Source: Balneolaceae bacterium
Lineage (GTDB): Bacteria > Bacteroidota > Rhodothermia > Balneolales > Balneolaceae
Length of the DNA: 32,908 nt
Assembly (NCBI GenBank): GCA_007123785.1
Contig: SLGL01000146.1
Coordinates: 1-32,908, forward strand
Direction: 5' to 3'
Below, piece by piece: positions 9,723 to 18,182 of this stretch. A program made the position numbers and the translations under genes. The notes beneath the pieces were generated by a model, which was not told the DNA's origin, ran no database searches, and was given only the letters and a program-made list of their open reading frames with translations. Position 1 is the stretch's first letter, and each line of letters opens with the position of its first letter.

Positions 9723-10487
9723 TTGAAACAGATCATCTACATAATCTTTTTAAGCATTCTTTCGGCAGTGCTACTATCAGCATGCAGCACACCCAGGGAG
9801 TTTACTGCTGTCGAGAAGCTGGAACGGGCTGAACTGGATGTTGAAGAACTAATTTCGATGATTCCAGATTATCGTAATGAGCTTCAGACGATCACTGGAA
9901 GCGGAAGGGCATTGGTCAGTGAACCAGGCGGCAGCGAACGTGTTATGCTTGAGTTCCATTCCAACCGGAACGAAAGCCTCATGACAGTGCGCAATAACGT
10001 TGGCATTGAAGGAGGACAGATTTATGTAGATTCAGACTCCCTTTTGATCTATAACAGGGTAGACAGAACCGCGGAAAAAGTACCACTGCACGAAGGCAGG
10101 CTTAGCAGTGTAGGTTCGATCGCTTCTATCAATATCCTCGATCTGATCAACTATACGATTGAACCCGGGCAAATTGACGAAATTTTTGAAGACCGGAGCT
10201 ATTACTATGCCATTCTGCAAAACCGGACTCAAATAAAAATATCGAAACAAAACGGAACCATTGTGGAAGTGATCCACTCAACCAGTCTGTATGATGCGCC
10301 CTACAGTAAAATTGAATATGAAGGTTATGACAGTATTGAGGGCTTTCATTTACCAAGAAGAATCACCATTTTCAGCAGAGACGAAGCTTCCCGGGCAACA
10401 CTGCTTGTTCAACGGCTCCAGGTAAACACCGAACTCCCGGAACTTGCGATTGTTGTGCCGGATAATATCCCCATACAGCGATTGTGA
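9723..10487 (+). CDS. DUF4292-like outer-membrane-associated lipoprotein (TTG or nearby start)
   Basis: Lipobox LLSAC; DUF4292-like layout (ITGSGRALVSEPGGSERVMLEFHSNRNESLMTVRNNVGIEGGQIYVDSDSLLIYNRVDRTAEKV); sits between the TPR and M23 genes. Confidence 0.7.
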   Translation: MKQIIYIIFLSILSAVLLSACSTPREFTAVEKLERAELDVEELISMIPDYRNELQTITGSGRALVSEPGGSERVMLEFHSNRNESLMTVRNNVGIEGGQIYVDSDSLLIYNRVDRTAEKVPLHEGRLSSVGSIASINILDLINYTIEPGQIDEIFEDRSYYYAILQNRTQIKISKQNGTIVEVIHSTSLYDAPYSKIEYEGYDSIEGFHLPRRITIFSRDEASRATLLVQRLQVNTELPELAIVVPDNIPIQRL

Positions 10488-11763: not shown

Positions 11764-13707
11764 TCAATCAAAATACCGATCCAGAAAACAGGCGAAAGAT
11801 AAACCAGATAATGTGTTGCTGGCGTGAAGTCGCATTTCCGCTGGCTTTTGCCCATTTCCCAAAGCTTGAAGAGATCTGATTATTTTATCAAAATTCAAAT
11901 AACGGGATGCAACGGGGCTTTTCTCAAAATCCTTGATTAAAGCCACTATCTCTTCTTTGTGTTGAATAATACGAAGCGGAAAATCAGCTGCCTGCCTGCC
12001 TCTTCTTTTATTAAGGCGGATTTCATCCGTCAGAATACCTTTCATGGCATTCCTGAGAAAAGCTCTGTCCAGCCCGTCTCTTGTATAGAGCTCATTTGGA
12101 ATGCCAAAACAGTATTTTATCAGTTGAACATCTGCGGTAGGGTCACGTACTTCTAACTGATGCATGGCACCATGCCTGTGCCAGCCTCCGCATACGAGAG
12201 GTTTATTTATATCTATTACATTGGCCCGTTGAATTTCAGGCCTTTTGGGGGCCTTGAAATATTGGAAATCCTCAGATCTCTGAACGATTCGTCTCAATCC
12301 AATTTGATCACAAAATTCCGGATGAATAATGGAATATCCTTTCAAAAGTTTATTTCTTGATACATACAGAAATTCCCTTCGTTTCCATAAAGGCAACAGT
12401 ACCGGGGCCAGGAAATGCTTGGCAAAAAGAAATGGCGAGGAACGACCTCTGCGTTTTTTTTCTGCTTTAAGAGAATCCATTACGGTTCCAATTTTTCCAT
12501 CAAGCAGATCAAAAAAAACTTTATTTGAACCTCCATACCAGGAAATAACAGCGTTCCCTAACTGCCCGGTCAACAGTACACCAAGCCCCATATCCCTGCT
12601 CTGTTGCAAAATGGACAGTATCCAGTTCAAATTTACCCCCCTGTTTGTAGGTATACCGTATTCTTCTGCAAGCCTCAGAATTCCCTGATGAATGGGAACA
12701 TCAGAAGCATCAACACGGATGTGCCGCATATTTGGATATTTTTCGGTTAGCGTGTGCGCAACATCCCATTCATCAATGATTTTATCAGGGACCAATCTAT
12801 TTGCATTGTGCTTTGGCACGGAGGTAAAGGCAGGCAGTTTTACATTTTTTTTGCCGAGTTCATTTGCTGCAAAAGCTGTAATTGTGGTCGAATCCAGCCC
12901 CGCGCTCAGCGTAGTTCCAACGGGCCTTTTTGATCGTAATCGCACCTTCACCGCCCGGCTCATCTGGTCTATAAAACCTTCCGTATAATCCGAATGTGAT
13001 GAGTAATGAATCTGAGGTATGGCATCATACGACCAGTATGTAAAAACGTTTAACATACTACCCGATAGTGTTAATGCATCTCCTGGATGGAGGCTAAACA
13101 CATTTTTCCAGTAGGTTTGATTCCAATTTTCACGGCTCACAAAACCAATGAGCTGGCCTGCAAGATAGGCTTCATTCAGTTGGACATCTACATCATCCAG
13201 ATCAAGAATAGCGTGCAGGTCTGAAGAAAAAACAAAAACAGAATCGTTTTTGTAATAATGCAGAGCAGTGTTACCGAACGGATCTCTTGCGAGAAAAAGT
13301 TACTGCATTTCCGGGTGCCAGGCAGCAAACGCCCAATCACCATAAATATATTCACAGGTATCTTTTCCCCAGCGTAAGTAAGCCAGCTCTACGAGTTTTG
13401 TATCAGGTGTTTTGGGATGATGAGAGGCGGGAATAGCAAATAAATTCAACAATTCATCCCTGTTGTCCAGGCGTGCCGATGCAGTGAACAAAATATTTTT
13501 TTGATTCAAAATACAAGGCGCGTGGTCATATTCTGATTCCGGGGTGATGGATAACCTTGCCTGCCCCATACCCGCATTTTCCTTAGCGATTGTAAATACC
13601 CCGTCTGGTCCCCAAGGGCCAAGCCTTGGCTTCATCTTTTCAAGCTGTTCCTCAACTTCACTTTGCGGCCTGCCATCTAGTCGGATCAAACCAAAAATAG
13701 CACTCAT
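11764..13707 (-). pseudogene. lasso-peptide macrolactam synthetase (asparagine synthetase B-like, 'C protein') with one in-frame TAA
   Basis: N-terminal Ntn-like half MSAIFGLIRLDGRPQ...YIYGDWAFAAWHPEMQ, stop at 13300-13302, then in the same frame LFLARDPFGNTALHYY...and the synthetase half with the PPi-loop-like VGTTLSAGLDSTTITAFA; all codons in one frame, about 647 codons in total. Confidence 0.85.
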
Positions 13708-13747
13708 GAAAAAAGCTTTTGTAATTTATGTGCAGGTGGTTCTTAAT

Positions 13748-14023
13748 CTATCCAAGAACTTTGATCAGGCCTTTTTCTTTGAGATCCGGTAAAAAATTAA
13801 GTACTTCTTCCTGGCATTGTTCTTCAGAGATTTCATAAATATCTAAAAGTTCTTTGCACAGTTCTTCAACCGTTTTTTCCTCTTCTAGAAGGTTCCAGGC
13901 CGATGCGGCTACACGGTTTAATCCGTAATATTTACCAGCATCGGCATCAAACATCACCATTTCATCATCAATAGGAGAAGCAACAACATCCCCGGTTCGT
14001 ATTATTTTACTCTTCAGATTCAT
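13748..14023 (-). CDS. PqqD-like RiPP recognition element (lasso B1)
   Basis: 91 aa, MNLKSKIIRTGDVVASPIDDEMVMFDADAGKYYGLNRVAASAWNLLEEEKTVEELCKELLDIYEISEEQCQEEV...; classic PqqD/B1 pattern. Confidence 0.9.
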   Translation of the reverse strand: MNLKSKIIRTGDVVASPIDDEMVMFDADAGKYYGLNRVAASAWNLLEEEKTVEELCKELLDIYEISEEQCQEEVLNFLPDLKEKGLIKVLG

Positions 14024-14078
14024 CGTAAAAAGAATATTGTTTTATTGAGTTAACAGTAGCTTATCGAAAATGAAGGTA

Positions 14079-14534
14079 TCAGGAAAATGTGGAAACCACA
14101 ACGTACTGATGAGCATTTTCACCACCGAGAATGATTTCAGGTCCAACTTTTAGCCAGGCATGGGCTTTAAGCTCTTTATTCTCTTTTCCTTTCTTGACAC
14201 CAAGAAACACCGTACATCCGATTTTTTTTCTGCGAAGCAACAATTTACCGGTTGCAGCTTGCACAAGGCATTCCGATTTCCAGGGCACGATTTCGCTCAT
14301 CCGCTCGATATAACGCGCCATGGCCCGTACCCAATTCCACTCTTTAGGTAGTTCTTGTTCCATATTCGAATGATTCTGTTCCCCCAGAAAAGGGGCGAGG
14401 TGTTTGAACGGCAGAAAAAGTATCATGAATCTGAAGAAAGCAAGCAGTATAAAAATCTCCATCAAAAGAAGCTTTCCCGAGAGTGGTTTTTGCAGAAAAC
14501 GGTGAATCAGTCTCTTCCTTTTTTTCCTACTCAA
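14079..14534 (-). CDS. lasso leader peptidase (B2, transglutaminase-like core)
   Basis: PWKSECLVQAATGKLLLRRKKIGCTVFLGV...LKAHAWLKVGPEIILGG: Cys and His positions of B2-type proteases; adjacent to B1. Confidence 0.9.
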   Translation of the reverse strand: MSRKKRKRLIHRFLQKPLSGKLLLMEIFILLAFFRFMILFLPFKHLAPFLGEQNHSNMEQELPKEWNWVRAMARYIERMSEIVPWKSECLVQAATGKLLLRRKKIGCTVFLGVKKGKENKELKAHAWLKVGPEIILGGENAHQYVVVSTFS

Positions 14535-14555
14535 AACTAAAATATCAGAATGGTT

Positions 14556-15545
14556 TTATGATTGGTTCCATACATCATGCCGAAATCTTTTTGCAGCTTT
14601 CAGCAGCGGCTTGATACCATCGGGCACCCATAACTTATAAACCGATGTTTTTGAGGCAATCTGAATACAAAATTTCAATTTTTCTTCAGGAGGCCATTGC
14701 AGCCAGTTATCACCATAAAGATAGTGAAGCAAACTGATAACAGCTTTACCCGATGTTATCTTTTCTGTTCTGAACCTGTTGGCGCCCTTTTCCCGGCCCG
14801 ATAAAATGTAGATATTTTTCAAAGCTGCAGGGCCGTCAAAAAAATCAGTTCCGAATTGATCAGCATGGATCCAGCTCTCCGGGTAGTCGGGTGTATCCGG
14901 AAAAATCATTTTCAATTGGGTTTCAGTTAAATCAAGTTCCCGGGCGGTATGGTTAAAAAGTTTCAAAAGCGGATAACCAGACTGAACTACTGGAACATCT
15001 GAGTGAACATCGGTTACAGCCATATCATCGGCATGCAACTGAAAACCATTTAAGGCCAAGGCCGCTGAAATAGTAGACTTTCCCATTCCGCTTGGCCCTA
15101 AAAAAAGATATGAACATCCATCGAGTACAAGAGATGATGCATGCAACACAGTTTTTTTCTGAAGGTACAAAGTAGCAGCCATTGCCGGATTCAGTAAAAC
15201 AAATACAGCCTGATTCCAATCTCTGTTTGTTTGTGAAATGCTGATTTTTGATCCATCAAGATTATATTCAAAAATAGTTTCTCCCCCGGAATGATCTCTA
15301 TATATTAAATGCCATCCCCCCTCTTTTTTTTCCCAAATCCGGGTCATTGATTTAGTTTTCGGATTTTTAACTTTAGGTATGAAGCGATTTTTTTGGATAT
15401 AGAGATCAAAGTGATCTGCTGAAGTTCTATCCTTCTTTAAATCAATTTCACTTGCAACCGACAAACCGTAAAGCAGATAGGTTTTTAATAAATCACTGCC
15501 CACATCTGGATGATGAATAGACTTTGTATTAGATTCTGAATTCAT
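14556..15545 (-). CDS. HPr kinase/phosphorylase-like protein (putative lasso-peptide kinase)
   Basis: P-loop CSYLFLGPSGMGKSTISAALALNGFQLHADDMAVTD; HPrK-like family frequently found in RiPP clusters. Confidence 0.85.
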   Translation of the reverse strand: MNSESNTKSIHHPDVGSDLLKTYLLYGLSVASEIDLKKDRTSADHFDLYIQKNRFIPKVKNPKTKSMTRIWEKKEGGWHLIYRDHSGGETIFEYNLDGSKISISQTNRDWNQAVFVLLNPAMAATLYLQKKTVLHASSLVLDGCSYLFLGPSGMGKSTISAALALNGFQLHADDMAVTDVHSDVPVVQSGYPLLKLFNHTARELDLTETQLKMIFPDTPDYPESWIHADQFGTDFFDGPAALKNIYILSGREKGANRFRTEKITSGKAVISLLHYLYGDNWLQWPPEEKLKFCIQIASKTSVYKLWVPDGIKPLLKAAKRFRHDVWNQS

Positions 15546-15553
15546 AAAAACTT

Positions 15554-16495
15554 TTATGGGACAATCATTTGATTAAATTGTGCATCATACTCTAAAAAGA
15601 CACTTCTTATTTTCTCTTCAGAATGCCCTGACTGTAAACAGCTATTTTTCCACCTTTTTCTCATTTTCTTTATGAGTGATAGTTCCGAATTTTCAGCAAG
15701 CTTCAGAAGCCATTTGCCGCCTGTTTTCAGTTCCTGAACGGACTCAAAGCAAAGTGTTTCAAAGATCTTTACCAAAGCAAGGTAATCTTTCAATGGAGTT
15801 TCGGGATAAAGTGAATAAAAATGCTGAAACCGGAGCTTTTTACGCTCTTTCTGAACCTGCTCTTTGAAAACAATACTTGCCTGTTTTTTATGCCGGCGAC
15901 GCTGGAGCAGAATCATAGGAACATTACCAATTCGGCACTGACTTGATACCCGAATTGGCCACTCATAATCATCAAACATAATATTTTCGTCAAGTGGGAA
16001 TTTTTTTGCAAGTTCAGCTTTCATCATCATAACAGAATTGATTACAACGACCCGAAACAACATTTCTATCCGGATAGAATGATGGTGGACGGGACACCAC
16101 ACCGAATTATTTTTCGCACCTATATTTTTGTACCAGCTGCCACATAAATCCAAATCAGCAGCTTTCATATATCTTAATTGCTCTTCAAGTCTTTTAGAAG
16201 AGTATATATCATCCGAATCAGTTCTGGCAATATATGTTCCCCGTGCATGTTGCATGCCTTCATGAAATGCTTCCGAGTTACTGGCTCCATTCAAAAAAAC
16301 CGGCCGTATTCGGGAGTCACTATTCGCATACTCCTGAACAATTTGGGGAGAACTGTCGGTTGAACCACTTTCAACGATGATAAATTCAAAATCACCGAAG
16401 GTTTGTTTGAGCACAGATTCAATCGCCAAAGGCAGGTATTTTTCATAATTATAACTTGTCATGATTACTGACAAGTACGGAGCAGTATTCTTCAT
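15554..16495 (-). CDS. family 2 glycosyltransferase
   Basis: YLSVIMTSYNYEKYLPLAIESVLKQTFGDFEFIIVESGSTDSSPQIV...RTDSDDIYSSKRLEEQL. Confidence 0.9.
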   Translation of the reverse strand: MKNTAPYLSVIMTSYNYEKYLPLAIESVLKQTFGDFEFIIVESGSTDSSPQIVQEYANSDSRIRPVFLNGASNSEAFHEGMQHARGTYIARTDSDDIYSSKRLEEQLRYMKAADLDLCGSWYKNIGAKNNSVWCPVHHHSIRIEMLFRVVVINSVMMMKAELAKKFPLDENIMFDDYEWPIRVSSQCRIGNVPMILLQRRRHKKQASIVFKEQVQKERKKLRFQHFYSLYPETPLKDYLALVKIFETLCFESVQELKTGGKWLLKLAENSELSLIKKMRKRWKNSCLQSGHSEEKIRSVFLEYDAQFNQMIVP

Positions 16496-16498
16496 AAA

Positions 16499-17110
16499 CT
16501 ACGCATGAATTCCAAGTATTTGATCAACAGTGACATAACCGAACTTCTCCGCAAGTCTTTGAAACGTATAGCCATCGGCGAGATAACCACTCTTCTGATC
16601 CCAGCCCCCGATTTTAAAAAGTGCTCGTTTTTTTACCATAACCTGCAGGGAGTCTATATTCTTTACACGAACAGGGATGCCAGAAAGCACCTTGGGAGGG
16701 TTACCAAGATGTTTGGGGAGCGGTCCCAAATGCAGAATTTTGCAAACTGCAAATCCCGTTTCTATTTTTGTATCCGAGAGGGGAGCTAACATTTTTTCGA
16801 GAAAATGAGGGTAGATCAAATTATCATCATCTAAAAATACAATGAAATTGCCATTTGTATACTGAAGGGAAAACTGTCTCGGTGTATTCCCGAAATCGTT
16901 TGAATGTTCTGGCAAATGAATATATCGTAATTTGGATGAATTTCTCTCCTGTATATATTTTTCAAGAGCCGGATTGGGACCATCAGAACAAATAATGTGT
17001 TCCCAGTAAGAATGGGTTTGATATTCAACAGACCGGATGCAGCGTTCCAATATTTCCAAAGGCCTGTTCCAGGTTGGAGTGATCACTGAAACAAGGTTGT
17101 TTTCCATCAA
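16499..17110 (-). CDS. family 2 glycosyltransferase (short)
   Basis: LVSVITPTWNRPLEILERCIRSVEYQTHSYWEHIICSDGPNP...FIVFLDDDNLIYPHFLEKML. Confidence 0.9.
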   Translation of the reverse strand: MMENNLVSVITPTWNRPLEILERCIRSVEYQTHSYWEHIICSDGPNPALEKYIQERNSSKLRYIHLPEHSNDFGNTPRQFSLQYTNGNFIVFLDDDNLIYPHFLEKMLAPLSDTKIETGFAVCKILHLGPLPKHLGNPPKVLSGIPVRVKNIDSLQVMVKKRALFKIGGWDQKSGYLADGYTFQRLAEKFGYVTVDQILGIHA

Positions 17111-17253
17111 AGGATAGTCATTGAATTAATAATTATTCGTTTAATCACGATTACTTTCAAGCCAAAAAACTACAGAATTTGAGCACCTATGTATATCCAA
17201 AAACATTTGTCTATAATAAACTTATGTTATTTTCGATACTTAATTCAAATCAT

Positions 17254-17283
17254 AAAAAAAGCCGTATTATAATAATACGGCTT
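17254..17283 (-). terminator. rho-independent terminator / attenuator between precursor and tailoring genes
   Basis: Perfect 11-bp stem AAGCCGTATTA (17259-17269) / TAATACGGCTT (17273-17283), 3-nt loop, followed on the minus strand by a run of 7 U (A7 at 17254-17260). Confidence 0.85.
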
Positions 17284-17310
17284 AATTTACAGAGTTTGAG
17301 TGATATGGAT

Positions 17311-17424
17311 TTAGGAGTAACCTTCTCCGTCACTTCCTTCTCCCTCACCCATTCTTGTTTCTGAATAATCTTCTTCAACAATCTTGGGTGTTACCCATTC
17401 ATTTTTTTCTTCGAATCGATCCAT
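17311..17424 (-). CDS. putative lasso-peptide precursor, 37 aa
   Basis: MDRFEEKNEWVTPKIVEEDYSETRMGEGEGSDGEGYS; leader WVTPKIVEEDYSET resembles the YxxPxLxxxGxxxxxT B1-recognition pattern with Thr at -2; acidic Gly-rich core with Asp at core position 8; first gene of the same-strand lasso enzyme array. Track ORF 17311-17496 is an N-terminally extended reading. Confidence 0.8.
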   Translation of the reverse strand: MDRFEEKNEWVTPKIVEEDYSETRMGEGEGSDGEGYS

Positions 17425-17543: not shown

Positions 17544-18182
17544 TCAGATCAATGAATTTAAAGCGTTTCTGATAGCCTCACCACCTGAAAGCAGATCAAA
17601 CTCAAGCCCCGATGTTTCCGGCATCTCATAAATTTCTGCCAGTACTGCGGCTACATCAGCGCGCGGTATTTCACCACGGTCGAGATTTATTGCGGCTTTC
17701 ACCTTTCCTGTTCCCGGTTCGTTGGTCAGTCTCCCAGGTTTTACGATGGTATAATCAAGGCCGCTGTTCCGCAAGGCATCATCCGCTTCAGCTTTCGCTT
17801 TTTGATAGACCTGAAACACCTCATTACCCCGTGGCGTGTCCAGCCCCATCGCACTGATCATCACAAAACGGGAGATGCCATTTTTTTTCGCTGCATCGAT
17901 CAGTTTAATGGCACCATCACGGTCAACTGTCCACTTTCGGTCGGCCCCGCTTCCGGGACCGGCGCCCGCAGCAAAGAGCACGGCATCTGCATTACCAACC
18001 GCATCGGACAGATCATCAATCTGTTCAATGTCTGCAATGACCGGTTCAACTCCGGCTTTTTTCAGTTCTGCAACCTGTTCCTGTTTACGGACCAAACCTC
18101 TGACTTGGTGCCTGTTTTGAATCAAAAGCGGGTGGAGCAGACGGGCAATCTGCCCGGATGCTCCAACAATCGTAATTTTCAT
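17544..18182 (-). CDS. NAD(P)-binding atypical SDR (NAD(P)H-binding / YwnB-like)
   Basis: MKITIVGASGQIARLLHPLLIQNRHQVRGLVRKQEQ...DAVLFAAGAG...YTIVKPGRLTNEPGTGKV. Confidence 0.9.
   Translation of the reverse strand: MKITIVGASGQIARLLHPLLIQNRHQVRGLVRKQEQVAELKKAGVEPVIADIEQIDDLSDAVGNADAVLFAAGAGPGSGADRKWTVDRDGAIKLIDAAKKNGISRFVMISAMGLDTPRGNEVFQVYQKAKAEADDALRNSGLDYTIVKPGRLTNEPGTGKVKAAINLDRGEIPRADVAAVLAEIYEMPETSGLEFDLLSGGEAIRNALNSLI

Follow-up and report, generated by a model that had tools for sequence, protein, structure and literature searches.

A predicted kinase-tailored lasso-peptide operon with an unusual glycosyltransferase pair in Balneolaceae, and acceptor-less peptides encoded behind T9SS cargo genes in related genomes

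Described systems and the Balneolaceae locus

Phosphorylation and further tailoring of lasso peptides have a precedent in the enzymes PadeK, PsmK, and PsmN (PMC9266682, PMC8498205). A His-Lys-Asp-Asp (HKDD) set is essential in the lasso kinases PadeK and ThcoK, which act on linear precursors at their C-terminal Ser (PMC9266682, PMC8498205), and in pseudomycoidin a nucleotidyltransferase homologue puts a sugar on the phospho-Ser (PMC9266682). Lasso clusters of rumen Butyrivibrio carry an HPr kinase, a nucleotidyltransferase, and a family 2 glycosyltransferase (GT2) (PMC7533575). Linear polyphosphorylated peptides (LPPs) are associated with an RRE, an HprK kinase, and an NTP transferase, with no cyclase; LPPs and paeninodins are described as restricted to Bacillota, and their roles are stated to be unknown (PMC13381572). 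The same source notes that clusters for phosphorylated lasso peptides are frequently located within polysaccharide loci.

The window analyzed here is a stretch of 32,908 nt from a Balneolaceae metagenome-assembled genome (G000; 515 contigs, 86% complete). It contains a whole lasso-type operon on the minus strand, in the order A-GT2a-GT2b-K-B2-B1-C (17424-11764), with K being HPr-kinase-like (Table 1). As in the paeninodin-type system (PadeA-K-B1-B2-C; PMC9266682, PMC8498205), B1 and B2 are split, C and an HKDD-bearing HPr-kinase-like kinase are present, and the precursor combines a WxxP leader with a C-terminal Ser. In contrast to that system, which belongs to Bacillota, the window lies in Balneolota, carries two GT2 genes and a very short Gly/Glu-rich core, and has no linked nucleotidyltransferase or ABC exporter. 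The outcome in pseudomycoidin (PsmK and PsmN), phospho-Ser plus hexose, would be predicted for the window as well; however, its sugar step relies on NTP_transf_5, which is absent from the cluster, whereas the window would use GT2. The rumen clusters likewise place a kinase and a GT2 beside lasso genes, although they belong to another phylum and additionally hold a nucleotidyltransferase and two-component genes. The kinase-GT2 lasso combination is therefore not unprecedented (PMC7533575).

As a whole, the window locus is best explained as a paeninodin-like, kinase-tailored lasso-peptide operon, a reading to which we assign a probability of about 0.8. Judged from its sequence, it is a genuine, slightly degraded operon of this kind with an unusual GT2 pair. 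The earlier note had proposed a lasso cluster with an unusual tailoring set; the lasso component stands, with B1, B2, C, and a precursor all found, but C is interrupted here and the tailoring set has the rumen precedent.

Table 1. Features of the operon, its chromosomal marker, and example cargo-downstream peptides of related genomes.
Feature	Position	Strand	Details
Precursor A	17311..17424	(-)	37 aa; translation; orthologue L026:12728-12615(-)
Hairpin + T-run	17259..17283	(-)	directly after A; z -5.0
GT2a, family 2 glycosyltransferase	16499..17110	(-)	203 aa, DDD motif; PF00535 E 3.2e-18
GT2b, family 2 glycosyltransferase	15554..16495	(-)	313 aa, DSDD motif; PF00535 E 1.8e-29
K, putative HPr-kinase-like tailoring kinase	14556..15545	(-)	H135, K156, D173, D174 invariant
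B2, predicted leader peptidase, transglutaminase-like	14079..14534	(-)	Cys89, His125 invariant; NF033537
B1, discrete PqqD-type RRE	13748..14023	(-)	PF05402, NF033536
C, predicted Asn-synthetase-like macrolactam cyclase	11764..13707	(-)	PF00733 + GATase_7; in-frame TAA 13302-13300
NAD(P)-binding reductase, chromosomal slot marker, outside pathway	17544..18182	(-)	adjoins B2 in L018-L020, L024, L025, L032 (same-genus genomes)
Example cargo-downstream peptides (L221-L256)	L234 (G019:C125:42382-42489); L023:6134-6244; L031:10745-10581(-)		

The seven tightly spaced minus-strand genes described in the earlier note were recovered as such, with gaps of <60 nt among the genes after A and of only 3-8 nt between GT2a, GT2b, and K. 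The operon segment is AT-richer than its surroundings (GC 40.2% vs 43.9% and 48.3% in the flanks). HMM searches matched B1, B2, and C to lasso families, as had been expected. B2 scored 84 bits against PF13471/NF033537 (cut-off 33), and B1 scored 73.7 bits against PF05402 (E 1.5e-20, cut-off 23.4) and 75.1 bits against NF033536, slightly below the cut-off of 80. The best models for C were PF00733 and lass_lactam_cya; with lass_lactam_cya, either half of the gene fell far short of the 525-bit cut-off. A Pfam scan of the genes on either side of the cluster disclosed no linked exporter or transporter, which agrees with the earlier note, as does the acidic core; other polysaccharide genes were likewise not found near the operon.

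A sister MAG of the same genus (G019, JAFIFB010000008.1, 'MAG: Balneolaceae bacterium isolate coassembly_bin.53', locus L026) holds the complete operon in the same order, with protein identities to the window of 85–97%. A conserved small acidic precursor is thus kept in a close relative, 36 of 37 residues of A being identical and the sole change being core Ser7 to Thr. Pairwise dN/dS between the window and G019 was about 0.05 for A, 0.07 for GT2a, 0.16–0.21 for B1, B2, GT2b, and C, and 0.32 for K, indicating purifying selection on every operon gene; by this measure, the predicted 37-aa precursor is under the strongest. Because the entire gene order is kept in a second genome, with dN/dS of 0.05-0.32 for all genes, the operon is not a chance arrangement, and the seven predicted genes are confirmed as a genuine lasso-type operon. 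The region upstream of A is also kept in L026, and the hairpin stem after A is unchanged. This hairpin and its T-run likely form an attenuating terminator yielding more mRNA for A than for the enzymes, which would give a high precursor-to-enzyme ratio.

Precursor, kinase, and glycosyltransferases

Precursor A consists of the leader MDRFEEKNEWVTPKIVEEDYSETR and the core MGEGEGSDGEGYS (17352-17314); the core reads in full M-G-E-G-E-G-S-D-G-E-G-Y-S, ending in ...GEGYS with a C-terminal Ser. Lasso precursors are usually cleaved with a Thr at position -2. In A, T23 occupies this position, and core Asp8 (D32 of A, 17331-17329) is the candidate ring acceptor; in an alternative register starting at Gly, the acceptor would be Asp7 or Glu9. 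The RRE motif of leaders, [Y/W]xxPx[L/V/I] (PMC13381572), appears in MDRFEEKNEWVTPKIVEEDYSETR as W10xxP13, and WxxP is common to other lasso precursors. The motif, the Thr at -2, and an acceptor within positions 7-9 were hence all found in A. The core is acidic, Gly/Glu-rich, and 12–13 residues long, equal to the shortest lasso peptide cited, huascopeptin (13 aa, PMC12427821), so the threaded fold is uncertain, a point that counts against the lasso reading.

Comparable features occur in G005 (L024), where A-B2-C-B1 lie in the same chromosomal slot and the precursor, ...SDTK-FGEQGDDDGDGFGEGDINPPPRS, shows the Thr at -2, Asp8, an acidic core, and a final Ser. At the Balneolales loci without C (L031, L023), the precursor is likewise without a ring acceptor, suggesting that acceptor and cyclase go together.

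K scored below the curated cut-offs of the HPr kinase models (21 bits for PF07475, 36 bits for TIGR04352), which counts against its assignment; in the alignment, its HKDD set was invariant. A K-profile search of the genome contigs found only three relatives, and precursors ending in Ser were seen at many kinase-bearing lasso loci of the phylum sample. The earlier note had proposed a phosphorylated and possibly glycosylated lasso peptide. Phosphorylation is well grounded in the C-terminal Ser, the HKDD set, and the paeninodin precedent, while glycosylation of the peptide by GT2a and GT2b is only plausible.

C and K occur together at 18 other loci of the phylum sample, and at 17 of these NTP_transf_5 and/or an ABC exporter is encoded within about 10 kb. 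Only L099 (G264:C9) departs from this, a kinase-lasso cluster from another family located in a polysaccharide locus that includes GT2s. Neither gene is linked to the operon in the window or in L026, where two GT2s are present instead; the only NTP_transf_5 (PsmN-like) copy found in the window's genome is unlinked (G000:C402). GT2a and GT2b could hence fill the role of pseudomycoidin's nucleotidyltransferase.

The L026 orthologues of GT2a and GT2b are 95.6% and 93.6% identical, respectively, and no close orthologues beyond G019 were found in 396 phylum genomes or in 99 relatives. Their nearest sequences are generic polysaccharide-type GT2s, so the acceptor is not readable from sequence, and AlphaFold models built on two-row alignments (mean pLDDT 41 for GT2a, 37 for GT2b) were set aside. 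The closest solved relatives, polysaccharide and teichuronic-type GT2s, and the frequent location of phosphorylated lasso clusters in polysaccharide loci (PMC13381572; L099) could indicate that the pair are bystanders, cell-surface polysaccharide enzymes lying between A and K, and that the product is phosphorylated only. We consider this unlikely, though deserving of weight, since no further polysaccharide genes lie nearby, the GT2a-GT2b-K genes are almost contiguous, and both GT2s are retained with the operon in the sister, GT2a being among its most constrained genes. The tie between the GT2s and the peptide consists of this joint conservation in two genomes and of co-transcription inferred from spacing, nothing else, which counts against a tailoring role.

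For the kinase-tailored lasso operon we propose that B1 binds the W10xxP13 leader of A, that K would phosphorylate the C-terminal Ser of linear A, and that B2 would cleave after Thr23-Arg24. C would link Met1 to Asp8, closing a ring of 8 residues in a peptide of 13; if the cut instead fell after Met25, a 12-residue core would remain, with Gly1 linked to Asp7 or Glu9. The probable next step is glycosylation by GT2a and GT2b, at the phospho-Ser or at Ser/Tyr. The likely product is a 12–13-residue acidic lasso peptide, phosphorylated at the C-terminal Ser and perhaps glycosylated.

A further PqqD - NTP_transf_5 - GT2 - kinase-like - GT2 group is located elsewhere in the sister genome (L262, G019:C72:92500-99500).

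The interrupted cyclase gene

The earlier note had regarded C as in need of repair, and indeed its frame is broken by a single TAA. In G019, C is an uninterrupted 647-aa frame. Relative to it, dN/dS of the window's C was 0.26 before the stop and 0.16 after, and purifying selection on both sides suggests that the TAA arose recently or stems from misassembly. Apart from the window's C, the slot holds a C only in G005, and this too has an in-frame TAA in the N-terminal domain (about 9999-10001), at a different codon. Both stops count against an intact lasso pathway. As the TAA interrupts C, the window's genome may make no product, and the pathway there is probably stalled at cyclization. An alternative genetic code for the TAA was set aside, the neighboring genes ending normally in table 11.

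The presence of a TAA in the N-terminal amidotransferase-like domain of two same-slot C genes, at different codons, might also be taken to mean that C works as two polypeptides or that the stop is read through. This is very improbable, given that the window offers no start codon between the stop and 13140, which would remove part of the N-terminal domain, and that the sister C is a single frame.

The interruption of C in both genomes could instead reflect an operon that is no longer of lasso type, in which C is dead and B2, B1, K, and the GT2s turn A into a linear phospho- or glycopeptide, the kind of processing proposed for the cyclase-free relatives. Such a view draws on cyclase-free K/B2/B1 loci with linear WxxP...Ser precursors, which exist in the order, and on the open frames of A, K, B2, B1, and both GT2s in the window. 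We judge it improbable, although less so than a functional split of C. The window core retains Asp8, C is intact in G019, and in the window purifying selection on C extends to the parts before and after the stop; moreover, K2, the kinase gene of the linear system, has suffered deletions in the window's genome, which yielded no linear precursor.

Cyclase-free relatives and peptides behind T9SS cargo genes

Seven other genomes of the genus hold B2/B1 without a nearby cyclase in the slot beside the NAD(P)-reductase and/or DUF1080 genes (or equivalent), either as B2 alone (L018, L019, L020) or as B2 with B1 (L021, L022, L025, L032). Genome-wide searches for a cyclase in these seven gave distant Asn-synthetase-like matches only, or none. 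The solitary B2/B1 keep the catalytic Cys/His, and across diverged species their dN is far below dS (with dS near saturation), so the view of them as decaying leftovers was rejected. The notion that cyclase-free genomes have no precursors was also rejected, as the precursor profile, run over these genomes, found peptides in trans at other loci. In the sister species the slot thus appears, from these comparisons, to serve a cyclase-free, trans-encoded peptide system, and the window's B2/B1 would sit in a slot kept under purifying selection for it. This qualifies the reading of the earlier note, in that B2 and B1 would not belong to a closed lasso cluster alone.

A second profile, built from acceptor-less sequences only, detected acceptor-less peptides (E < 1e-5) in 11 of 28 same-genus genomes, where a single genome has as many as 11 at scattered positions, and also in a few Balneolales outside the genus. 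Their common traits, partly built into the profile, are W..P.[IVL]..L.I...T, a Pro-rich core, and a final Ser (43/44). Genomes with linear peptides and genomes with a K homologue, 11 each, share 10 (Fisher p 9e-6, phylogeny uncorrected), and K adjoins a B1-type RRE at a conserved locus in several of the genomes.

Of the linear peptides, 35 were testable in having 700 nt or more of contig upstream of them, and 33 of these begin 11–382 nt downstream of a gene with a T9SS type A sorting domain at its end, a pairing independent of the profile. The domain was confirmed by TIGR04183 and PF18962 in the cases scanned. Such cargo genes number 10–34 per genome in the seven genomes counted, or about 1% of genes (gene number estimated), a rarity that excludes chance pairing even should some of the cases go back to cassette duplication and so not be independent. 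At L031, L023, and G025:C313 (L175/L256), the cargo-peptide pair lies beside an NTP gene and K, together with B2, a B1-type RRE, or both, which physically ties the linear peptides to the machinery.

In the window's genome, K2, a second HPr-kinase-like gene (G000:C257, L259), carries two internal deletions relative to the full-length gene in G019 (G019:C78, L260), and the acceptor-less profile found no linear precursor; the side system thus looks dead there. G019 has the full-length K2 and one cargo-peptide pair. In several species (L174, L179, L190, L191), the stretch from K2 to the RRE gene contains a mini-ORF that has a leader (W[HQ]KP.IISLD or similar) but no core and is possibly a trans-acting leader.

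The cyclase-free Balneolales set and LPPs have in common a discrete RRE, an HprK-like kinase, an acceptor-less core, and a [Y/W]xxP leader. In LPPs, which belong to Bacillota, the genes are clustered, the leader is YxxP, and the peptidase is of the SpI type, whereas the Balneolales set has lasso B2 as its candidate protease, a WxxP leader, and precursors scattered behind T9SS cargo. Because leader, candidate protease, phylum, and gene layout differ, we do not file the set as LPP. The absence of a cyclase and of a ring acceptor, by which LPPs are recognized, applies to the T9SS-paired peptides of the relatives; the window has both C and Asp8.

The phylum-wide search revealed no clear members of the T9SS-paired family outside Balneolales. 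In the literature covered, which included few subscription papers, we found no report linking T9SS to lasso peptides or Por secretion to PqqD, and no title or abstract on type IX secretion and RiPPs that mentions the cargo-peptide pairing. The relatives may hold a wider, apparently undescribed family of uncyclized peptides encoded behind T9SS cargo genes. We place at even odds that the window operon is a cyclized offshoot of a Balneolales RiPP system in which short WxxP...Ser peptides, encoded immediately behind T9SS type A cargo genes, serve as partners of the cargo. Acting in trans, a kinase-RRE pair at an unlinked locus and a solitary lasso-type B2 would phosphorylate and trim these peptides, with glycosylation as a possible further step, and the modified products would function alongside the secreted cargo on the cell surface.

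The lasso cluster would extend kinase-tailored lasso peptides to Balneolota; its GT2s are candidates for lasso glycosyltransferases, and its core matches the shortest on record. Of the two results, the possible T9SS-paired family is the less expected and deserves testing most. It offers a reason why lasso B2/B1 persist in genomes without a linked cyclase and, with a T9SS cargo protein as a concrete neighbor, a testable hypothesis for the function of kinase-modified RiPPs.
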